Part shown: positions 5,761 through 31,395 of the stretch, piece after piece
Numbering within the stretch: the first letter of the stretch is position 1
Layout: the number at the start of each line of letters is the position of its first letter
NCBI GenBank assembly: GCA_021157605.1
Contig: JAGGWG010000002.1
Coordinates: 1 to 48,888 of the forward strand
DNA: 48,888 bases
Direction: 5' to 3'
Source: a bacterium
GTDB lineage: Bacteria; Patescibacteriota; UBA1384; JAGGWG01
Position numbers and translations under genes: made by a program
Notes under the pieces: generated by a model
Databases searched by the model: none
What the model saw: the letters and a program-made list of their open reading frames with translations, nothing else
Told to the model about the DNA's origin: nothing

Positions 5761-6104
5761 GGGGCTGAAAGGCATTGATGCTTTTGCAGTTTCCTTCAAA
5801 ATGCAGGCAAGCAGTTGCTGGACTGCTTTGAACAAAACCAGTAATTCAAGTGCCAAAGAACCGGCACTCGCTCTTGCTTAATACAAGAGCACCCCTCAGC
5901 TTGAGCCGAGAAAGCTGAAGCGGGTTCAAAAACTCGGCTTAAAAGCTTGTCTTGCTCCAGATAAGCTTGGATTCTAAAAAGGAGCTTATTTCTGCTTTTT
6001 TTGCCTAGTTTAAAGAGCAGAAAGAATTTTCAAACTAGGCTAAGCCTGTAGATTCTTGGGGAAACCAAGAGCAGACGAGGGTTCAAATCCCTCCAGCTCC
6101 ACCA
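5761..6104 (+). ncRNA. ssrA: Transfer-messenger RNA (tmRNA)
   Basis: Rescues stalled ribosomes with SmpB (encoded at 18177). The 5' end GGGGCTGAAAGGCATTGATG and the 3' end with the T-arm GGGTTCAAATCCC and encoded ACCA pair as a tRNA-like acceptor (GGGGCTG/CAGCTCC). Pseudoknot 1 can be drawn: GCAGT (5811-5815)/ACTGC (5822-5826) with loop CTGG (5818-5821) pairing CCAG (5838-5841). Ten nt later is the resume codon GCC (5852), opening a tag frame that reads A-K-E-P-A-L-A-L-A and stops with TAA at 5879-5881. The stop codon sits in the loop of a 7-bp helix (GCTCTTG/CAAGAGC), as usual for helix 5. One-piece form, 344 nt. Confidence 0.95.
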
Positions 6105-8608: not shown

Positions 8609-8679
8609 GAGTGGTTTGGTTTTTTGCTCCGCCTGTGGCGAAGCAATCAAACTCGCCCAAAAAATCAGAAAGTCAATTA

Positions 8680-8755
8680 TGGTCGGGGATGCGGGACTTG
8701 AACCCGCAACCTCCGGCACCCGAAGCCGGCGCGCTACCAATTGCGCCAATCCCCG
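8680..8755 (-). tRNA. tRNA-Pro(CGG)
   Basis: Complete cloverleaf on the minus strand: acceptor CGGGGAT/ATCCCCG, D-arm GCGC...GCGC, anticodon stem CCGGC/GCCGG with loop TTCGGGT (anticodon CGG), T-arm GCGGG/CCCGC with TTCAAGT. The 3' CCA is encoded (8680-8682), unlike the other tRNAs in this window. Confidence 0.95.
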
Positions 8756-8842
8756 ATTTTTGTTTCTAAATTATATATTTTCTTCTATATTTACTGCGAG
8801 AGCGAAGGTCGAATCCGCAAACAAGGAGTTTTAGTCTTTTTA

Positions 8843-26065: not shown

Positions 26066-27325
26066 ATGGACAAAAAAAGAAAAAACCTTAAAACAGGAGA
26101 AAGAATCGCTTTCTGGGCTTCTGTTTCCACTCTCCTTTTAGCTTTGGTCAAGGGACTAGTGGGCTGGTTAAGTCATAATTTGGCTTTAACCGCTGATGCT
26201 TTTCATTCAGGCGCTGATACTGTGGCTATTTTAGCTTCCTATTTTGGCCTTAAACTTTCTCAGAAAAAACCTACTGAAAAATTCCCTTATGGATTTTACA
26301 AAACTGAAACACTAGCTGCTTTAATCGCCAGTATTTTTATTCTTTACGCCGCTGTAGAAATCGCTAAGGCTGGAATTCAAAATTTGCTTCACCCCCACTT
26401 TCAAACCACCACTCTGACTTTACCTTTAATTGTTACCTTTCTTTCTTCAGCAATAGCTGCTCTTTTAGCTTGGTACGAAATAAAAATAGGCAAAAAAATT
26501 AACTCTGCCTCTTTGGTAGCCAACGGACAAGAATCATTAACCGACATCTTCACTTCTCTTTTGGTAGTAGTTGCTATATTTGCCTCCTATTTTAAGTGGC
26601 CATACATAGAAGGGGGAGTGGCCTTAGTTTTGGCAGTTTTGGTTTTCAAAATTGCTATTGAAAACGGTTGGGACAGCCTTTTAGTTCTTTTGGATGCTGG
26701 TATCCCCAGAGAAACAGAGAAAAAAATAGAAAAAACTATTCTTAAAATCTCTGGCGTCAGAGGCATCAAACTTTTAAGACTAAGACGCTCCGGTCCTTTT
26801 ATTTTTGGAGAAACTACAATTTTGATTAACCGCGATCTTCCTTTAGACAGATCACATGAGATAACAAAGGAGATTGAAAAAGAAGTGAAGCGCAGAATAA
26901 ACAATTTAGAATCACTTTCAATCCACACTGAACCATACAAAATAGAGAAAATAAAGGTTGCTTTGCCTATTGAGAGTGACAATGGTTTAGATTCTCAAAT
27001 CTCTCCCCATTTTGGCAGAGCTAATTTTTTTATTTTAATCAAGATAGATAAAAAGAAAATTATCTCTTATGAAATCATAGAAAATAAAGCCAAAGACCTT
27101 TCTATCCATGCTGGCTTAAAAGCAGTAAAACTTTTACTTAAGCAAAAAATAGACAGCTTAATAGTTAAGAATGTGGGGGAAATAAGTTTTCATACTCTGC
27201 GAAATAACCTCGTAGAGCTCCATCAAACAAAGAAAAATTTAGCTATAGAAGCAGCCAAAGATTTTGTTAACAAAAAAACAAAAATCCTTAGCTCTCCCAC
27301 CCACACCTCAGACAAAAAAATCTAA
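26066..27325 (+). CDS. Cation diffusion facilitator fused to a NifX-type domain
   Basis: 419 residues. Residues ~1-210 are a CDF transporter with about six membrane segments. The helix-2 metal site reads ADAFHSGAD (HxxxD). The helix-5 site reads ANGQESLTD, giving ExxxD where zinc transporters have HxxxD. A cytoplasmic CDF C-terminal domain (about 215-295) ends in LSIHTEPY. A second, separate domain at about 300-405 (KVALPIESDNGLDSQISPHFGRANFF and on) is PF02579-like, as in the preceding gene. The fusion suggests metal efflux coupled to a cluster- or metal-binding sensor. The MinD-type ATPase gene follows after 2 nt. Confidence 0.88.
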   Translation: MDKKRKNLKTGERIAFWASVSTLLLALVKGLVGWLSHNLALTADAFHSGADTVAILASYFGLKLSQKKPTEKFPYGFYKTETLAALIASIFILYAAVEIAKAGIQNLLHPHFQTTTLTLPLIVTFLSSAIAALLAWYEIKIGKKINSASLVANGQESLTDIFTSLLVVVAIFASYFKWPYIEGGVALVLAVLVFKIAIENGWDSLLVLLDAGIPRETEKKIEKTILKISGVRGIKLLRLRRSGPFIFGETTILINRDLPLDRSHEITKEIEKEVKRRINNLESLSIHTEPYKIEKIKVALPIESDNGLDSQISPHFGRANFFILIKIDKKKIISYEIIENKAKDLSIHAGLKAVKLLLKQKIDSLIVKNVGEISFHTLRNNLVELHQTKKNLAIEAAKDFVNKKTKILSSPTHTSDKKI

Positions 27326-27327
27326 CT

Positions 27328-28155
27328 ATGGAGATAATCGGCATTACTGGCGGAAAAGGAGGAACAGGCAAATCTACTTTTGCCCTTCTTTTGGCTAATG
27401 AGCTCTTACACCAAGGTAAAAAAGTGATACTTGTAGATGCAGATGTAGAATGCCCTAATATTTATCTCATCAACTCTTGGCCAATAGGACAAGACAAAAA
27501 GAAGGTATATGCCTATTTTCCAGAATTAATCAAAGAAAAATGTCAGAAGTGCGGATTATGCGCCCAAAAATGCCCTTTTGGAGCTATTTTTCAGGCACCC
27601 AACCAATACCCAGTTTTTCTCCATGAAATGTGCGGTGCTTGCCATCTCTGTAAAGAAATCTGTCCCTTTGGCGCCATTAAAGAAATCAAAAAGATGAGCG
27701 GGAAAATCTTTCTCTCTGAACCAAAGAAAAACTTAACTCTTATAACCGGCAAAGCTAAACAGGGGCTAGAGGAAACCGGCCCAGTAGTAAAAGAGCTAAT
27801 TGAGTTTAGCCAAAAAATAGGCAAAACAAAAAAAGCTGATTACCTGCTTATTGACTCTGCTGCTGGCACCCACTGTCCAGTTATTCACGCTCTTTTGGGG
27901 GTAGACAAAGCTATGGCAGTCACTGAACCAACTCCTTTAGGCTCGCACGACTTAAAACTAATTATAAACTTACTGCAAAAACTCAAAAAACCGGTTGAAA
28001 TCATCATCAACCAAGTTGATTTAGGCAAAACTAAAGAAATAGAGGAAATAGCAGCTAAACACAATATCCCCATAAAACACAAAATACCTTATTCTAAAAA
28101 ATTGGTTAAACAATACGCCCAAGGTAAATTTAACTTAAAACTCTCTGACTTATGA
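27328..28155 (+). CDS. MinD-superfamily P-loop ATPase with inserted ferredoxin domain (first copy)
   Basis: 275 residues. Deviant Walker A GGKGGTGKST at residues ~8-17, switch I VDADVECPN near 39-47, then an inserted 2x[4Fe-4S] module at about 71-118 (CQKCGLCAQKCPFGAI and CGACHLCKEICPFGAI), and the Walker B-like LLIDSAAGTHCPV near 173. It belongs to the COG1149-type ATPases related to Mrp/NBP35 Fe-S scaffolds, but with its own ferredoxin insert. Likely assembles or transfers electrons or clusters, possibly to the NifX-type domains next door; that is inference. Its stop overlaps the start of the second copy (ATGA). Confidence 0.9.
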   Translation: MEIIGITGGKGGTGKSTFALLLANELLHQGKKVILVDADVECPNIYLINSWPIGQDKKKVYAYFPELIKEKCQKCGLCAQKCPFGAIFQAPNQYPVFLHEMCGACHLCKEICPFGAIKEIKKMSGKIFLSEPKKNLTLITGKAKQGLEETGPVVKELIEFSQKIGKTKKADYLLIDSAAGTHCPVIHALLGVDKAMAVTEPTPLGSHDLKLIINLLQKLKKPVEIIINQVDLGKTKEIEEIAAKHNIPIKHKIPYSKKLVKQYAQGKFNLKLSDL

Positions 28156-29021
28156 AAGAAATATTCATTGGCTCAGGAAAAGGCGGGGTAGGAAAATCAA
28201 TGCTTACTGCTTCTTTAGCCATTTTAGCCTCCCAAGAAAAAAGAGTTTTAGCTTTAGATGCTGATGCTGATGCACCTAATTTAGCCCTTTGGTTAGGAGG
28301 AATAAAAAAATGGGATAGAAAAGAAAAAATATCAACCTCCCAAAAACCAGAAATTAGCCCCAAAAAATGTACTAATTGTGGATTATGCGCCCAGAAATGC
28401 CCTTTTGGAGCCCTAAAGATGGAAAACAAAAAACTAAAATTTATACCTTTTGTTTGTGAAGGCTGCGGACTCTGTCAGGAAATCTGTCCAAAAGGAGCTA
28501 TTAAAATGAAACCAGTTAAAAACGGCTATTTGGTTTTTAAAAATAAAGCCCTAAAAAACCTTGATTTTGTCGGCTGTCAACTTTCCCCCGGAGAAACTGG
28601 ATCTGGTAAAGTTATTGACAAAATGAAGGAAGAGTCTCAAGGTTGGCGACAAAAAAACGATCTTATTTTTGTTGACTCAGCTCCAGGAACCGGCTGCCCG
28701 GTTAATGCAGCTTTAAGAGGAGCTGATTTGGCAGTTCTTATTACTGAACCCACCCCTTCGGGCGCAAAAGATTTAGAAAACTTGCTGGTTGTAGTTAAAC
28801 ACTTTAATATTCCTTGGTTTTTAGTAATAAACAAATACGGACTAAATTCAGCGATCGAGAAAAACCTTAAAAAGTTAGCTGGAAATAAGTATTTAGGTCA
28901 AATTAGTTATGATCAAAAAATATTCCAAGCCATAGCTGAACTTAAACCTATACCCTTTACCAATCTCAAAGCAAAAGAAGAAATCTCTCTAATTTGGAAA
29001 AACCTTAAAAGACACCTTTAA
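28152..29021 (+). CDS. MinD-superfamily P-loop ATPase with inserted ferredoxin domain (second copy)
   Basis: 289 residues, paralogue of the preceding gene. Walker A GSGKGGVGKSMLTASLA at residues ~6-22, LDADADAPN near 36-44, two ferredoxin motifs at about 76-120 (CTNCGLCAQKCPFGAL and CEGCGLCQEICPKGAI) and VDSAPGTGCPV near 175. The two copies probably form a heterodimer, since MinD/Mrp ATPases are dimers with ATP at the interface; such pairs always occur as tandem genes in COG1149 clusters of anaerobes. Last gene of the cluster; followed by the promoter of a candidate non-coding RNA rather than a terminator. Confidence 0.9.
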   Translation: MKEIFIGSGKGGVGKSMLTASLAILASQEKRVLALDADADAPNLALWLGGIKKWDRKEKISTSQKPEISPKKCTNCGLCAQKCPFGALKMENKKLKFIPFVCEGCGLCQEICPKGAIKMKPVKNGYLVFKNKALKNLDFVGCQLSPGETGSGKVIDKMKEESQGWRQKNDLIFVDSAPGTGCPVNAALRGADLAVLITEPTPSGAKDLENLLVVVKHFNIPWFLVINKYGLNSAIEKNLKKLAGNKYLGQISYDQKIFQAIAELKPIPFTNLKAKEEISLIWKNLKRHL

Positions 29022-29023
29022 TC

Positions 29024-29052
29024 TTGACAAAAAAGAAAAAATAGTCTAATAT
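29024..29052 (+). promoter_or_regulatory. Strong consensus promoter of candidate ncRNA
   Basis: TTGACA (29024-29029), 17-bp spacer, TAATAT (29047-29052). This is the best consensus match in the window, yet no open reading frame follows; transcription should start near 29060. Confidence 0.75.
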
Positions 29053-29059
29053 ACCCTCT

Positions 29060-29228
29060 ATAACAAAAAGCGGGCGCAGACTCTCCGGCTTATGGACTTA
29101 ATTTTCCCACCGTGGCCTACGCCCGCAGAAAGGTTAACCTTTCTTCCTCAACCTGCCTGACAGAAGCGGCAAGCCGAAGAGGAAAGGGGATTCTTAGGTA
29201 CGTCCCAATTCTGGGACATTTTTATTTT
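29060..29228 (+). ncRNA. Candidate structured non-coding RNA, class not recognised
   Basis: Bounded by a consensus promoter and an intrinsic terminator with no plausible protein frame between them. Visible helices: GCGGGCG (29070-29076)/CGCCCGC (29120-29126) closing a ~43-nt domain; GAAAGG/CCTTTC (29128-29143); TTCCTC (29144-29149)/GAGGAA (29179-29184) with an inner TGCC/GGCA; and the terminator stem. Total about 165-170 nt. It shows neither the GGAAG/AGCAG core of signal recognition particle RNA nor RNase P motifs such as GAGGAAAGUCC near the 5' end. 6S RNA is possible in size but the multi-hairpin fold does not look like it. Confidence 0.6.
29202..29228 (+). terminator. Terminator of candidate ncRNA
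   Basis: GTCCCA (29202-29207), ATTC loop, TGGGAC (29212-29217), then ATTTTTATTTT. Confidence 0.8.
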
Positions 29229-29234
29229 ACCAAA

Positions 29235-29264
29235 TATCGTTTTTCGCTGTCAAGAAAAACGATA
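29235..29264. repeat. 11-bp inverted repeat
   Basis: TATCGTTTTTC (29235-29245) and GAAAAACGATA (29254-29264) are exact complements around an 8-nt loop, in AT-rich sequence just after the ncRNA terminator. A CCCTTA/TAAGGG palindrome lies near 29281-29294. Confidence 0.6.
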
Positions 29265-29364
29265 AAAAAAGCTTGAAATACCCTTATTTAAGGGAAAAAT
29301 AAAGAATAGAAAAAGGTTTTGAACAAAAATAAATATTCTTGACTTTACGCGTTCACTTAAAAAG

Positions 29365-29392
29365 TGTGGATAAATTATCCACTTTATCCACA
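29365..29392. promoter_or_regulatory. Cluster of three DnaA-box-like sites
   Basis: TGTGGATAA (29365-29373, minus-strand box), TTATCCACT (29375-29383) and TTATCCACA (29384-29392) within 28 bp; the first two form a perfect palindrome around one base. Two match the TTATCCACA consensus exactly. The site lies in AT-rich DNA at the end of the dnaX-dnaB operon. An origin or a DnaA titration/regulatory site are possible; strand composition does not obviously switch here. Confidence 0.5.
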
Positions 29393-29401
29393 GAATATTG
29401 T

Positions 29402-30016
29402 CTATTTTCCGCGACCAAGAAAAAATATAGTTCCCAAGGCAAGAATTAGCACTGCTCCAATAATAATACCTGCTAAAATAAGCCAGGAAAGAATTGAATA
29501 AAAAAACGAAGCTAAAATAGCAATAAAATTCTGTCCAAAATGGGTATTATCCAAAACAAAAAGAATAATTAAAAAAGAAAGAAAGAATAAACCCGAGCGA
29601 TAAAAACGTTCTTTATCAGAACAGAAGTAATCAAAATTGGTTTTAATTCTCTCCAAAAGAGTAGGGGGCGAAAAATCACTTTCAGCAGTTAAATCCTTTA
29701 CTGCCTTTTTAAGGTTTTTAACCGCCTCTTTTAAATCTAAAAGAGTAACCGTTTCTCCGTACTCTTTAAATACCTTTTCATAAATACTAAGAGATGCTTT
29801 CAGTCCCTTAAGATCAGTAAATCTAACTTTAGCCTTTTTTATTTTTTCCTCTAAGGAGTGTCCAAGATACCCTTGATCTTCAAGTAAATAATTTAAAAGT
29901 TTGGCTAATTCAGCTAAAGCCATTGACCAAGAAGCAATAGTATCTTCTTTTTCATAGTTTTCAATAACTGACCAATCAATAATCTCTTCAGCTTGTTCAA
30001 ATATATCTTTAGTCAT
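29402..30016 (-). CDS. Membrane protein with coiled-coil N-terminus, unknown function
   Basis: 204 residues. The first ~135 are helical and highly charged (EKIKKAKVRF, LKEAVKNLKKAVKDLTAES), likely coiled coil or helical bundle in the cytoplasm. Two membrane segments follow (about 143-163 and 170-200), ending in a short basic tail LGRGK. No family recognised. It begins 2 nt after dnaB stops, so it is co-transcribed with dnaB. Co-location with dnaB does not by itself prove a replication role. Confidence 0.65.
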   Translation of the reverse strand: MTKDIFEQAEEIIDWSVIENYEKEDTIASWSMALAELAKLLNYLLEDQGYLGHSLEEKIKKAKVRFTDLKGLKASLSIYEKVFKEYGETVTLLDLKEAVKNLKKAVKDLTAESDFSPPTLLERIKTNFDYFCSDKERFYRSGLFFLSFLIILFVLDNTHFGQNFIAILASFFYSILSWLILAGIIIGAVLILALGTIFFLGRGK

Positions 30017-30018
30017 AA

Positions 30019-31395
30019 TTAAATCTCAATTTCATCTGCAGGGATTTCTACCTCGTGGCGTTTATCAACTTCCCTAAAAAGCAATTGATCAGCCACAAAG
30101 TAAAGCTCTACTTCGCCAGTAGGACCATGACGGTGTTTGCGTATTAAGATATCAGCAATATTTTTTCTATCTGTATCCTTATCATAGTAATCCTCGCGGT
30201 AAATAAACATAACCACATCAGCATCCTGCTCTAATGAACCAGACTCTCTTAAATCAGAAAGCTGAGGAATCTGAGGATGTCTCTGTTCTACAGCCCGGGA
30301 AAGCTGAGATAAGGCCAAAAGAGGCACATCAAGCTCCCTAGCTAAGGCTTTGAGACCACGAGATATCTCTGATATCTCCTGAACCCGGTTGGCTTCATTG
30401 TAAGAACCTCTTTCTCCCTGCATCAACTGAAGATAATCTATTACTAAAAATCCAATTTTGTGCTCTGCCTGAAGCCGCCGCGCTTTGGCCCTTATTTCCG
30501 AAACAGTCATATTAGGAGTATCCTCAATAAATATAGGGGCTTCTGATAATCTACCCATTGATTCCCCTAAACGAGAAAAATCCTCATCTGAAAGCTTTCC
30601 AGTTCTCATCTTCCAAGAATCAATCTGGGCATCCATACAAAGCAGACGTTCAATCAACTGATCTTTACTCATTTCTAAAGAAAAAATACCTACAGGAATC
30701 TCTGCCTTTAAAGCTATATTAAGAGCAATATTAAGAGCAAAAGAAGTTTTGCCCATTGCTGGCCGCGCTGCCAAAATAATTAGGTCAGAGGGCTGAAGAC
30801 CAGAAAGCATATTGTCTAATTCAGAAAACCCTGTAGGCAAACCTCTGACCCCTCCGCTTTTTTCCTCATGTAATCTCTCTAATCTTTCATAAGTTTCTGC
30901 TAAAGCATCGTGAAGGGAGACAAAATCACTGCGCCGATGTTTTTCACTAACAGAAAAAATAGACCTTTCTGCTTTATCCAAAACTCCGGCTGCGTCTTCT
31001 TCTGCCTTAAAACTATCTTCAATAATCTGAGAGGCAGCAGAAATCAAACGTCTCAAAGCCGCTTTATCAGCCACAATTTTAGCATGCTCTTCTATATGAG
31101 CACTGGAAGGAACAAAAGAAGCCAACTCACTCAAATAAGCAGCCCCTACTTTTTTAGCCTTTTTTTTGCGTCGCAACTCTTCGGTTAGGGTCACTAAATC
31201 AATAGGCGTACTTTTTTCAAACATCTTTTCCATTGTTTCATAAATAATACGATGCTTGTCGTCGTAAAAATCGCGCGCTGTTAAAATATCAGCTACCTTA
31301 ATAAAGGCATCAGCATCAATAAGTATAGACCCCAAAACCGTCTTTTCTGCTTCTATGTTTTGCGGAGGCAAACGATCTGAGTTTTTCTCTGCCAT
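30019..31395 (-). CDS. dnaB: Replicative DNA helicase DnaB
   Basis: Hexameric 5'-3' helicase of the replication fork. 458 residues: N-terminal helical domain (about 10-110, PPQNIEAEKTVLGSILID), linker, then the RecA-like domain with Walker A ARPAMGKTSFA near residue 211, Walker B FLVIDYLQLM near 316, ALSQLSRAVEQR near 362 and the Arg-finger region IRKHRHGPTGEVEL near 425. No intein. ATG 31395 lies 7 nt after TATTAT, with TTGGTA 18 bp further upstream inside the end of dnaX, so dnaB may have its own leaderless promoter besides read-through from dnaX 26 bp away. Confidence 0.97.
   Translation of the reverse strand: MAEKNSDRLPPQNIEAEKTVLGSILIDADAFIKVADILTARDFYDDKHRIIYETMEKMFEKSTPIDLVTLTEELRRKKKAKKVGAAYLSELASFVPSSAHIEEHAKIVADKAALRRLISAASQIIEDSFKAEEDAAGVLDKAERSIFSVSEKHRRSDFVSLHDALAETYERLERLHEEKSGGVRGLPTGFSELDNMLSGLQPSDLIILAARPAMGKTSFALNIALNIALKAEIPVGIFSLEMSKDQLIERLLCMDAQIDSWKMRTGKLSDEDFSRLGESMGRLSEAPIFIEDTPNMTVSEIRAKARRLQAEHKIGFLVIDYLQLMQGERGSYNEANRVQEISEISRGLKALARELDVPLLALSQLSRAVEQRHPQIPQLSDLRESGSLEQDADVVMFIYREDYYDKDTDRKNIADILIRKHRHGPTGEVELYFVADQLLFREVDKRHEVEIPADEIEI

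Follow-up and report, generated by a model that had tools for sequence, protein, structure and literature searches.

A conserved non-coding element beside dnaB in a candidate-phyla bacterium: a putative small RNA with a facing antisense unit

Elements of the locus next to dnaB

The putative small RNA gene considered here adjoins dnaB, which encodes the DNA helicase, in a candidate-phyla bacterium with a genome of less than 0.6 Mb. Positions refer to the window, i.e. the whole stretch of 48,888 nucleotides that was analyzed. Within the window, the operon of the Fe-S ATPase ends at 29021, and a promoter (P2) starts directly after its stop codon on the plus strand. A second promoter (P1) faces it from the side of dnaB, where a palindrome of DnaA boxes is also located. 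The region between dnaB and the RNA further harbors a gene for a 204-aa protein (29402-30016, minus strand) that has no Pfam match and is missing at this place in G001, the one known relative from the same GTDB family. The constituent features are:

29024..29052, plus strand: P2, facing promoter TTGACA-17-TAATAT, hexamers and spacing shared with G001
29059..29228, plus strand: putative transcript complementary to the main RNA, predicted from the conserved P2 and the conserved terminator of H1 and T tract
29061..29217, minus strand: main RNA, about 150-157 nt, ends predicted from promoter and terminator
29065..29126, minus strand: H3 and U5, intrinsic terminator of the minus-strand RNA, GCGGGCGUAGGC..GUCUGCGCCCGC UUUUU, lower stem 12/12 paired in both genomes
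29127..29137, minus strand: linker 2, pyrimidine-rich, partly unpaired, with an alternative pairing to the 3' arm of H2
29138..29187, minus strand: H2, CCUUUC..GAAAGG, a long hairpin whose fold has 19 pairs and a single C-A mismatch
29188..29201, minus strand: linker 1, GUACCUAAGAAUCC, mostly single-stranded (unpaired probability mostly >0.7)
29202..29217: H1, 5' hairpin of the minus-strand RNA, GUCCCA/UGGGAC; together with the T tract at 29218-29228 it doubles as terminator of the plus-strand transcript
29224..29253, minus strand: P1, from which the minus-strand RNA would start, TTGACA-18-TAAAAT, a TG preceding the -10 hexamer, score 11/12
29365..29392: DnaA-box palindrome between dnaB and P1, two perfect boxes and one with a mismatch

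A first-pass annotation of this DNA had described an orphan structured RNA on the plus strand, transcribed from the promoter at 29024-29052. The sequences it listed are all present, within 0-2 bases of the places it gave: TTGACA-17-TAATAT, GCGGGCG (29070-29076) pairing with CGCCCGC (29120-29126), TTCCTC (29144-29149) with GAGGAA (29179-29184), and a terminator sequence consisting of GTCCCA/TGGGAC (29202-29217) followed by ATTTTTATTTT. GAAAGG (29128-29133) and CCTTTC (29138-29143) exist as well; the helix proposed for them is missing from the minimum-energy fold of the plus strand. The promoter itself scores 10/12 and is outscored by P1, so that it does not hold the rank of best promoter of the window that it had been given (scores were compared within 27000-31000).

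The arrangement recurs in G001, which was the only one of 60 relatives searched to give a DNA match. The corresponding contig is STE_108 (JAQVDI010000042, L005), whose DnaB is 76% identical; a contig search with DnaB returned no close relative besides this same locus. As in the window, the element of G001 comes after dnaB and a palindrome of DnaA boxes; the gene beyond it differs. P1, positioned in the window to start an RNA near the GUCCCA/UGGGAC hairpin on the minus strand, is retained with both hexamers, the spacing and 15 of the 18 spacer bases identical. P2 is found at L005 3804 on the minus strand, with hexamers and spacing unchanged. Both are rare motifs: TTGACA-18-TAAAAT occurs twice in the genome of the window and once in G001, TTGACA-17-TAATAT three times and twice, respectively, and on the 5.6-kb G001 contig P1 and P2 are the sole sites with a perfect -35 hexamer and at least 4/6 matches in the -10 hexamer. 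Facing promoter pairs with a perfect -35 hexamer within 400 bp number one in the window genome and two in G001, one of the latter at this locus. H1 with its T tract is terminator-like on the plus strand in both genomes. As P1, P2 and the H1 terminator are all conserved, either end of the element combines a promoter for one strand with a terminator for the opposite strand.

The first-pass annotation also noted DnaA boxes nearby. These are real (29365-29392) and belong to the only cluster of at least four boxes within 300 bp in the genome (29365-29547, allowing up to one mismatch). G001 has an inverted pair of boxes, one of them perfect, at the same place behind dnaB, and in both genomes a pair lies approximately 90-110 bp upstream of P1. 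The locus is probably not the replication origin, since dnaA is located at 8622-8828 on another contig (C5), at a turn of the GC skew, and no such turn is found in the window. A 22-bp palindrome, TTTTTC..GCGAAAAA, that seemed to be repeated around P1 and the DnaA boxes has three good copies in G001; it was rejected, as the background in the window genome is equally good.

Strand, fold and comparison with G001

Folding favors the minus strand. For 29058-29225 the plus strand reaches -52.6 kcal/mol, weakly better than shuffled sequences (z = -2.0), compared to -72.9 kcal/mol and z = -6.2 for about the same stretch on the minus strand. When 652 non-coding windows of the genome were scanned coarsely, minus-strand windows of the element ranked near the top (z = -6.1), alongside RNase P RNA, rRNA and other structured stretches. 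The minus-strand RNA folds into three hairpins in a row, the last being a long GC stem with U5; on this strand the GCGGGCG..CGCCCGC stem runs directly into the U5 tract. The fold of the window copy contains seven G-U pairs on the minus and three on the plus strand, and the former argue for the minus strand because they would be A-C mismatches on the other. For the counterpart in G001 the z-scores are -8.2 (minus) and -6.0 (plus). An orphan structured element with its own promoter and terminator, as proposed by the first-pass annotation, is supported. The annotation probably chose the wrong strand: fold z-score, G-U pairs, promoter score and the long GC-rich terminator all favor the minus strand for the main RNA.

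Linker 2 can alternatively pair with the 3' arm of H2 (AGAAAGG/CCUUUCU in the window, GGGAGAAU/AUUCUUCC in G001), each of these helices amounting to -6.7 kcal/mol by itself. In both genomes the alternative is less stable than H2, and may, judging from the predicted energies, represent a folding intermediate or a switch.

Promoter and first hairpin form a block of 64 bp with 89% identity between the window and G001. It ranks 11th best of 203 non-coding stretches compared with G001, among neighbors in rank that are mostly tRNA genes. Past this block the sequence has diverged and the three hairpins are kept. H1 retains 6/6 pairs in an identical stem, with a loop of 4 nt in the window vs 3 nt in G001. 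Pairs were counted by hand, as automatic alignment displaces H1 and H3 by one base. The lower stem of H3 comprises 12 pairs, of which seven are the same, two differ on one side and three show compensatory changes; of the eight pairs compared in H2, four are the same, two are one-sided and two compensatory. In total, five compensatory and four one-sided changes and no broken pair are observed in 20 pairs of H2 and H3. The covariation called for by the first-pass annotation is therefore present in what is a single, hand-aligned comparison, only two genomes carrying the element; with two sequences and an alignment chosen by eye, it supports the structure without proving it. Pairing in H3 would be equally good if it served as a terminator alone, and an inverted repeat is preserved on either strand.

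No protein product is indicated. The claim that the stretch lacks a long reading frame holds: it contains only short frames of 22-23 aa, and those of the window and G001 are unrelated, with neither a shared peptide nor a conserved reading frame. A single ATG, near the RNA start, is placed alike in both genomes (MSQNWD.. in the window, MSHNGT.. in G001), and the frame that follows is lost owing to the 1-nt difference in the hairpin loop.

Family assignment and distribution

An Rfam search had been suggested by the first-pass annotation; the element remains unmatched at the gathering score, and under relaxed settings (E up to 10) it matches only weak, implausible kinds at a chance-like level. 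The exclusion of SRP RNA, RNase P RNA and tmRNA is upheld. The RNase P RNA of the genome (RF00010) is located on another contig (C1 355-807) and its tmRNA (RF00023) at window position 5761-6104; RF00169 and the domain IV motif of SRP RNA are unmatched, and the genome also has no recognizable SRP54 GTPase. The Rfam scan of the whole genome found neither 6S nor SRP RNA; the window contributes the tmRNA and several tRNAs, and the remainder of the genome rRNA, tRNA, RNase P RNA, an L10 leader and an AdoCbl-II riboswitch. The proposal of a 6S-like RNA fares worse. RF00013 has no match at E<=1 in the window genome or G001, and the fold of both RNAs consists of three separate hairpins with almost no pairs closing the 5' and 3' ends: between the first 30 and the last 35 nt, where a 6S closing stem would be expected, the expected number of pairs is 0.46 and 0.22. 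The element resembles 6S RNA in its size range and its predicted independent transcription, and differs from the one long hairpin with a central bubble that characterizes 6S RNA. Weak 6S-like matches elsewhere in the phylum, at L003 1501-1635 (G018) and in L004 (G058), reach about 41 bits relative to a cut-off of 46.4 and are possible divergent 6S RNAs of those genomes.

A covariance model of the element was applied to 55 genomes of the class and to a sample of 380 genomes of the phylum. It matches strongly in the window genome (232 bits) and in G001 (185 bits). Other matches, in the 53 further genomes of the class and the phylum sample, score about 18-26 bits and none is convincing; the five that were inspected align chiefly with the A/T-rich promoter part. 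The large scans used stricter filters and may have overlooked weak, distant relatives. No match was obtained in viral contigs, plasmids or phages. The orphan conserved non-coding element is real and, as far as seen, confined to one family, in line with the lineage-specific RNA that had been anticipated.

Some observations from these scans concern other loci. The SRP54 GTPase family (Ffh, FtsY) is found above the cut-off in one of 55 genomes of the class, with all 14 controls detected, and SRP RNA (RF00169) in none of 21. A signal recognition particle is apparently absent from the class, and a limited literature search found no paper reporting this absence. In a member of the Berkelbacteria (L009 5336-5515), a promoter-like site (TTGACA-17-TATCAT) likewise comes directly after dnaB; some 150 nt that contain no long frame lie behind it and are closed by a terminator-like stem, ACTGCGGT..ACCGCAGTTTTTT; a sequence likeness to the element is not shown.

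Possible roles of the facing transcription units

The conservation of P2 and of the plus-strand terminator in G001 marks the locus as a putative pair of facing, overlapping transcription units. Two conserved facing promoters with overlapping predicted transcripts, the arrangement expected of an antisense-regulated pair, are found in both genomes, and the main RNA is likely to have an antisense counterpart from the plus strand. Plus-strand signal might also be read-through, as P2 lies directly after the stop codon of the upstream operon. In our view the locus is best read as encoding a structured regulatory RNA restricted to this lineage, together with an antisense RNA of its own. RNA polymerase would start at P1, just upstream of 29217, and yield a compact RNA of about 150 nt, in which two short linkers connect a protective 5' hairpin, a long hairpin in the center and the hairpin of the terminator. 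P2 would drive a complementary RNA from the opposite end, terminating at the hairpin formed by H1, and this transcript could set the level of the main RNA, via duplex formation or polymerase collision. We consider a stable, non-coding regulatory RNA from the minus strand, its level set by the P2 transcript, to have about an even chance of being correct. The conserved facing promoters, the two terminators, the minus-strand fold with its compensatory changes and the absence of any conserved frame are read from the DNA itself, and transcription of both strands, stability of the RNA and a regulatory role for it are inferred.

An ordinary trans-acting small RNA on the minus strand, pairing with mRNAs through its pyrimidine-rich linkers and leaving P2 and the plus transcript irrelevant, is a lesser possibility that deserves consideration. 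Hfq-independent trans-acting small RNAs, e.g. those of Firmicutes, are composed of a 5' hairpin, pyrimidine-rich linkers and an intrinsic terminator. The element shares this shape, which is common to many small RNAs; its linkers are pyrimidine-rich in both genomes, and no recognizable Hfq is found in the window genome or G001. It differs in that no conserved target was found and a conserved antisense promoter faces it. Across the start regions of 329 orthologous genes, the predicted pairing with the linkers shows no conservation (rho 0.06 and 0.16, with shuffled controls reaching 0.16), no seed complements are enriched in both genomes, and the conservation of P2 would be left unexplained.

It is unlikely that function resides in the plus-strand RNA, as first proposed, and that P1 produces its antisense. 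This would account for the conservation of P2 and the H1 terminator, and the predicted plus transcript of G001, about 90 nt longer than that of the window, folds well and can form an extra 15-bp stem. Against it stand the weak plus-strand fold of the window copy, the higher score of P1, and the position of P1 in the longest conserved stretch, although the plus-strand terminator shares that stretch. An equally improbable account is that of ordinary intergenic DNA, in which terminators of the neighboring operons and chance promoters yield no functional RNA. H1 could terminate the Fe-S ATPase operon, and the palindrome of DnaA boxes could do the same for the dnaB operon. However, both promoters and their spacing are conserved, the neighboring gene beyond the element differs in G001, and H2, kept by compensatory changes, neither terminates an operon nor forms part of a promoter.

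Control of replication by analogy to plasmids appears very doubtful: DnaA would bind the palindrome, and the facing RNAs would link helicase supply, or a second DnaA site, with the cell cycle. The antisense pairs that regulate copy number in plasmids (RNAI/RNAII of ColE1, CopA/CopT of R1) are small, facing, overlapping transcripts, one of them a compact stem-loop RNA, and the predicted layout resembles them in its two facing, overlapping units, its compact stem-loop RNA and the nearby DnaA boxes. Unlike these pairs, the element sits on the chromosome next to dnaB, apart from dnaA and from the origin defined by GC skew; it has no primer or Rep gene and no sequence match in plasmids, and its plus transcript would end before the DnaA boxes. 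A type I toxin-antitoxin pair, with a small toxin coded on one strand and an antisense RNA on the other, is hardly credible: known pairs (txpA/RatA, bsrG/SR4, par of pAD1) have facing, overlapping units with closely set promoters and terminators, a layout with shared terminator sequence that the element resembles by its promoters and terminators, but it lacks a conserved small, usually hydrophobic peptide, its short frames being wholly different between the genomes and the ATG frame near P1 lost.

The known kind to which the preferred reading, a regulatory RNA with a built-in antisense RNA, would assign the element is the small RNA with an antisense partner, of which it would be an additional member not classified by Rfam. 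If this is true, regulation by small RNAs persists in a genome of less than 0.6 Mb that has no recognizable Hfq or 6S RNA. The papers searched contained very little about small RNAs in candidate-phyla bacteria, and the element provides a defined locus to seek in metatranscriptomes.

Two further loci of the same genome are recorded here. An AdoCbl-II (cobalamin) riboswitch is located at L094 183-254 (contig C9). On contig C4 (L089 8860-9700), a GC-rich stretch crowded with inverted repeats in a genome of about 38% GC lies behind a perfect TTGACA-17-TATAAT promoter and is probably a repetitive surface-protein gene.
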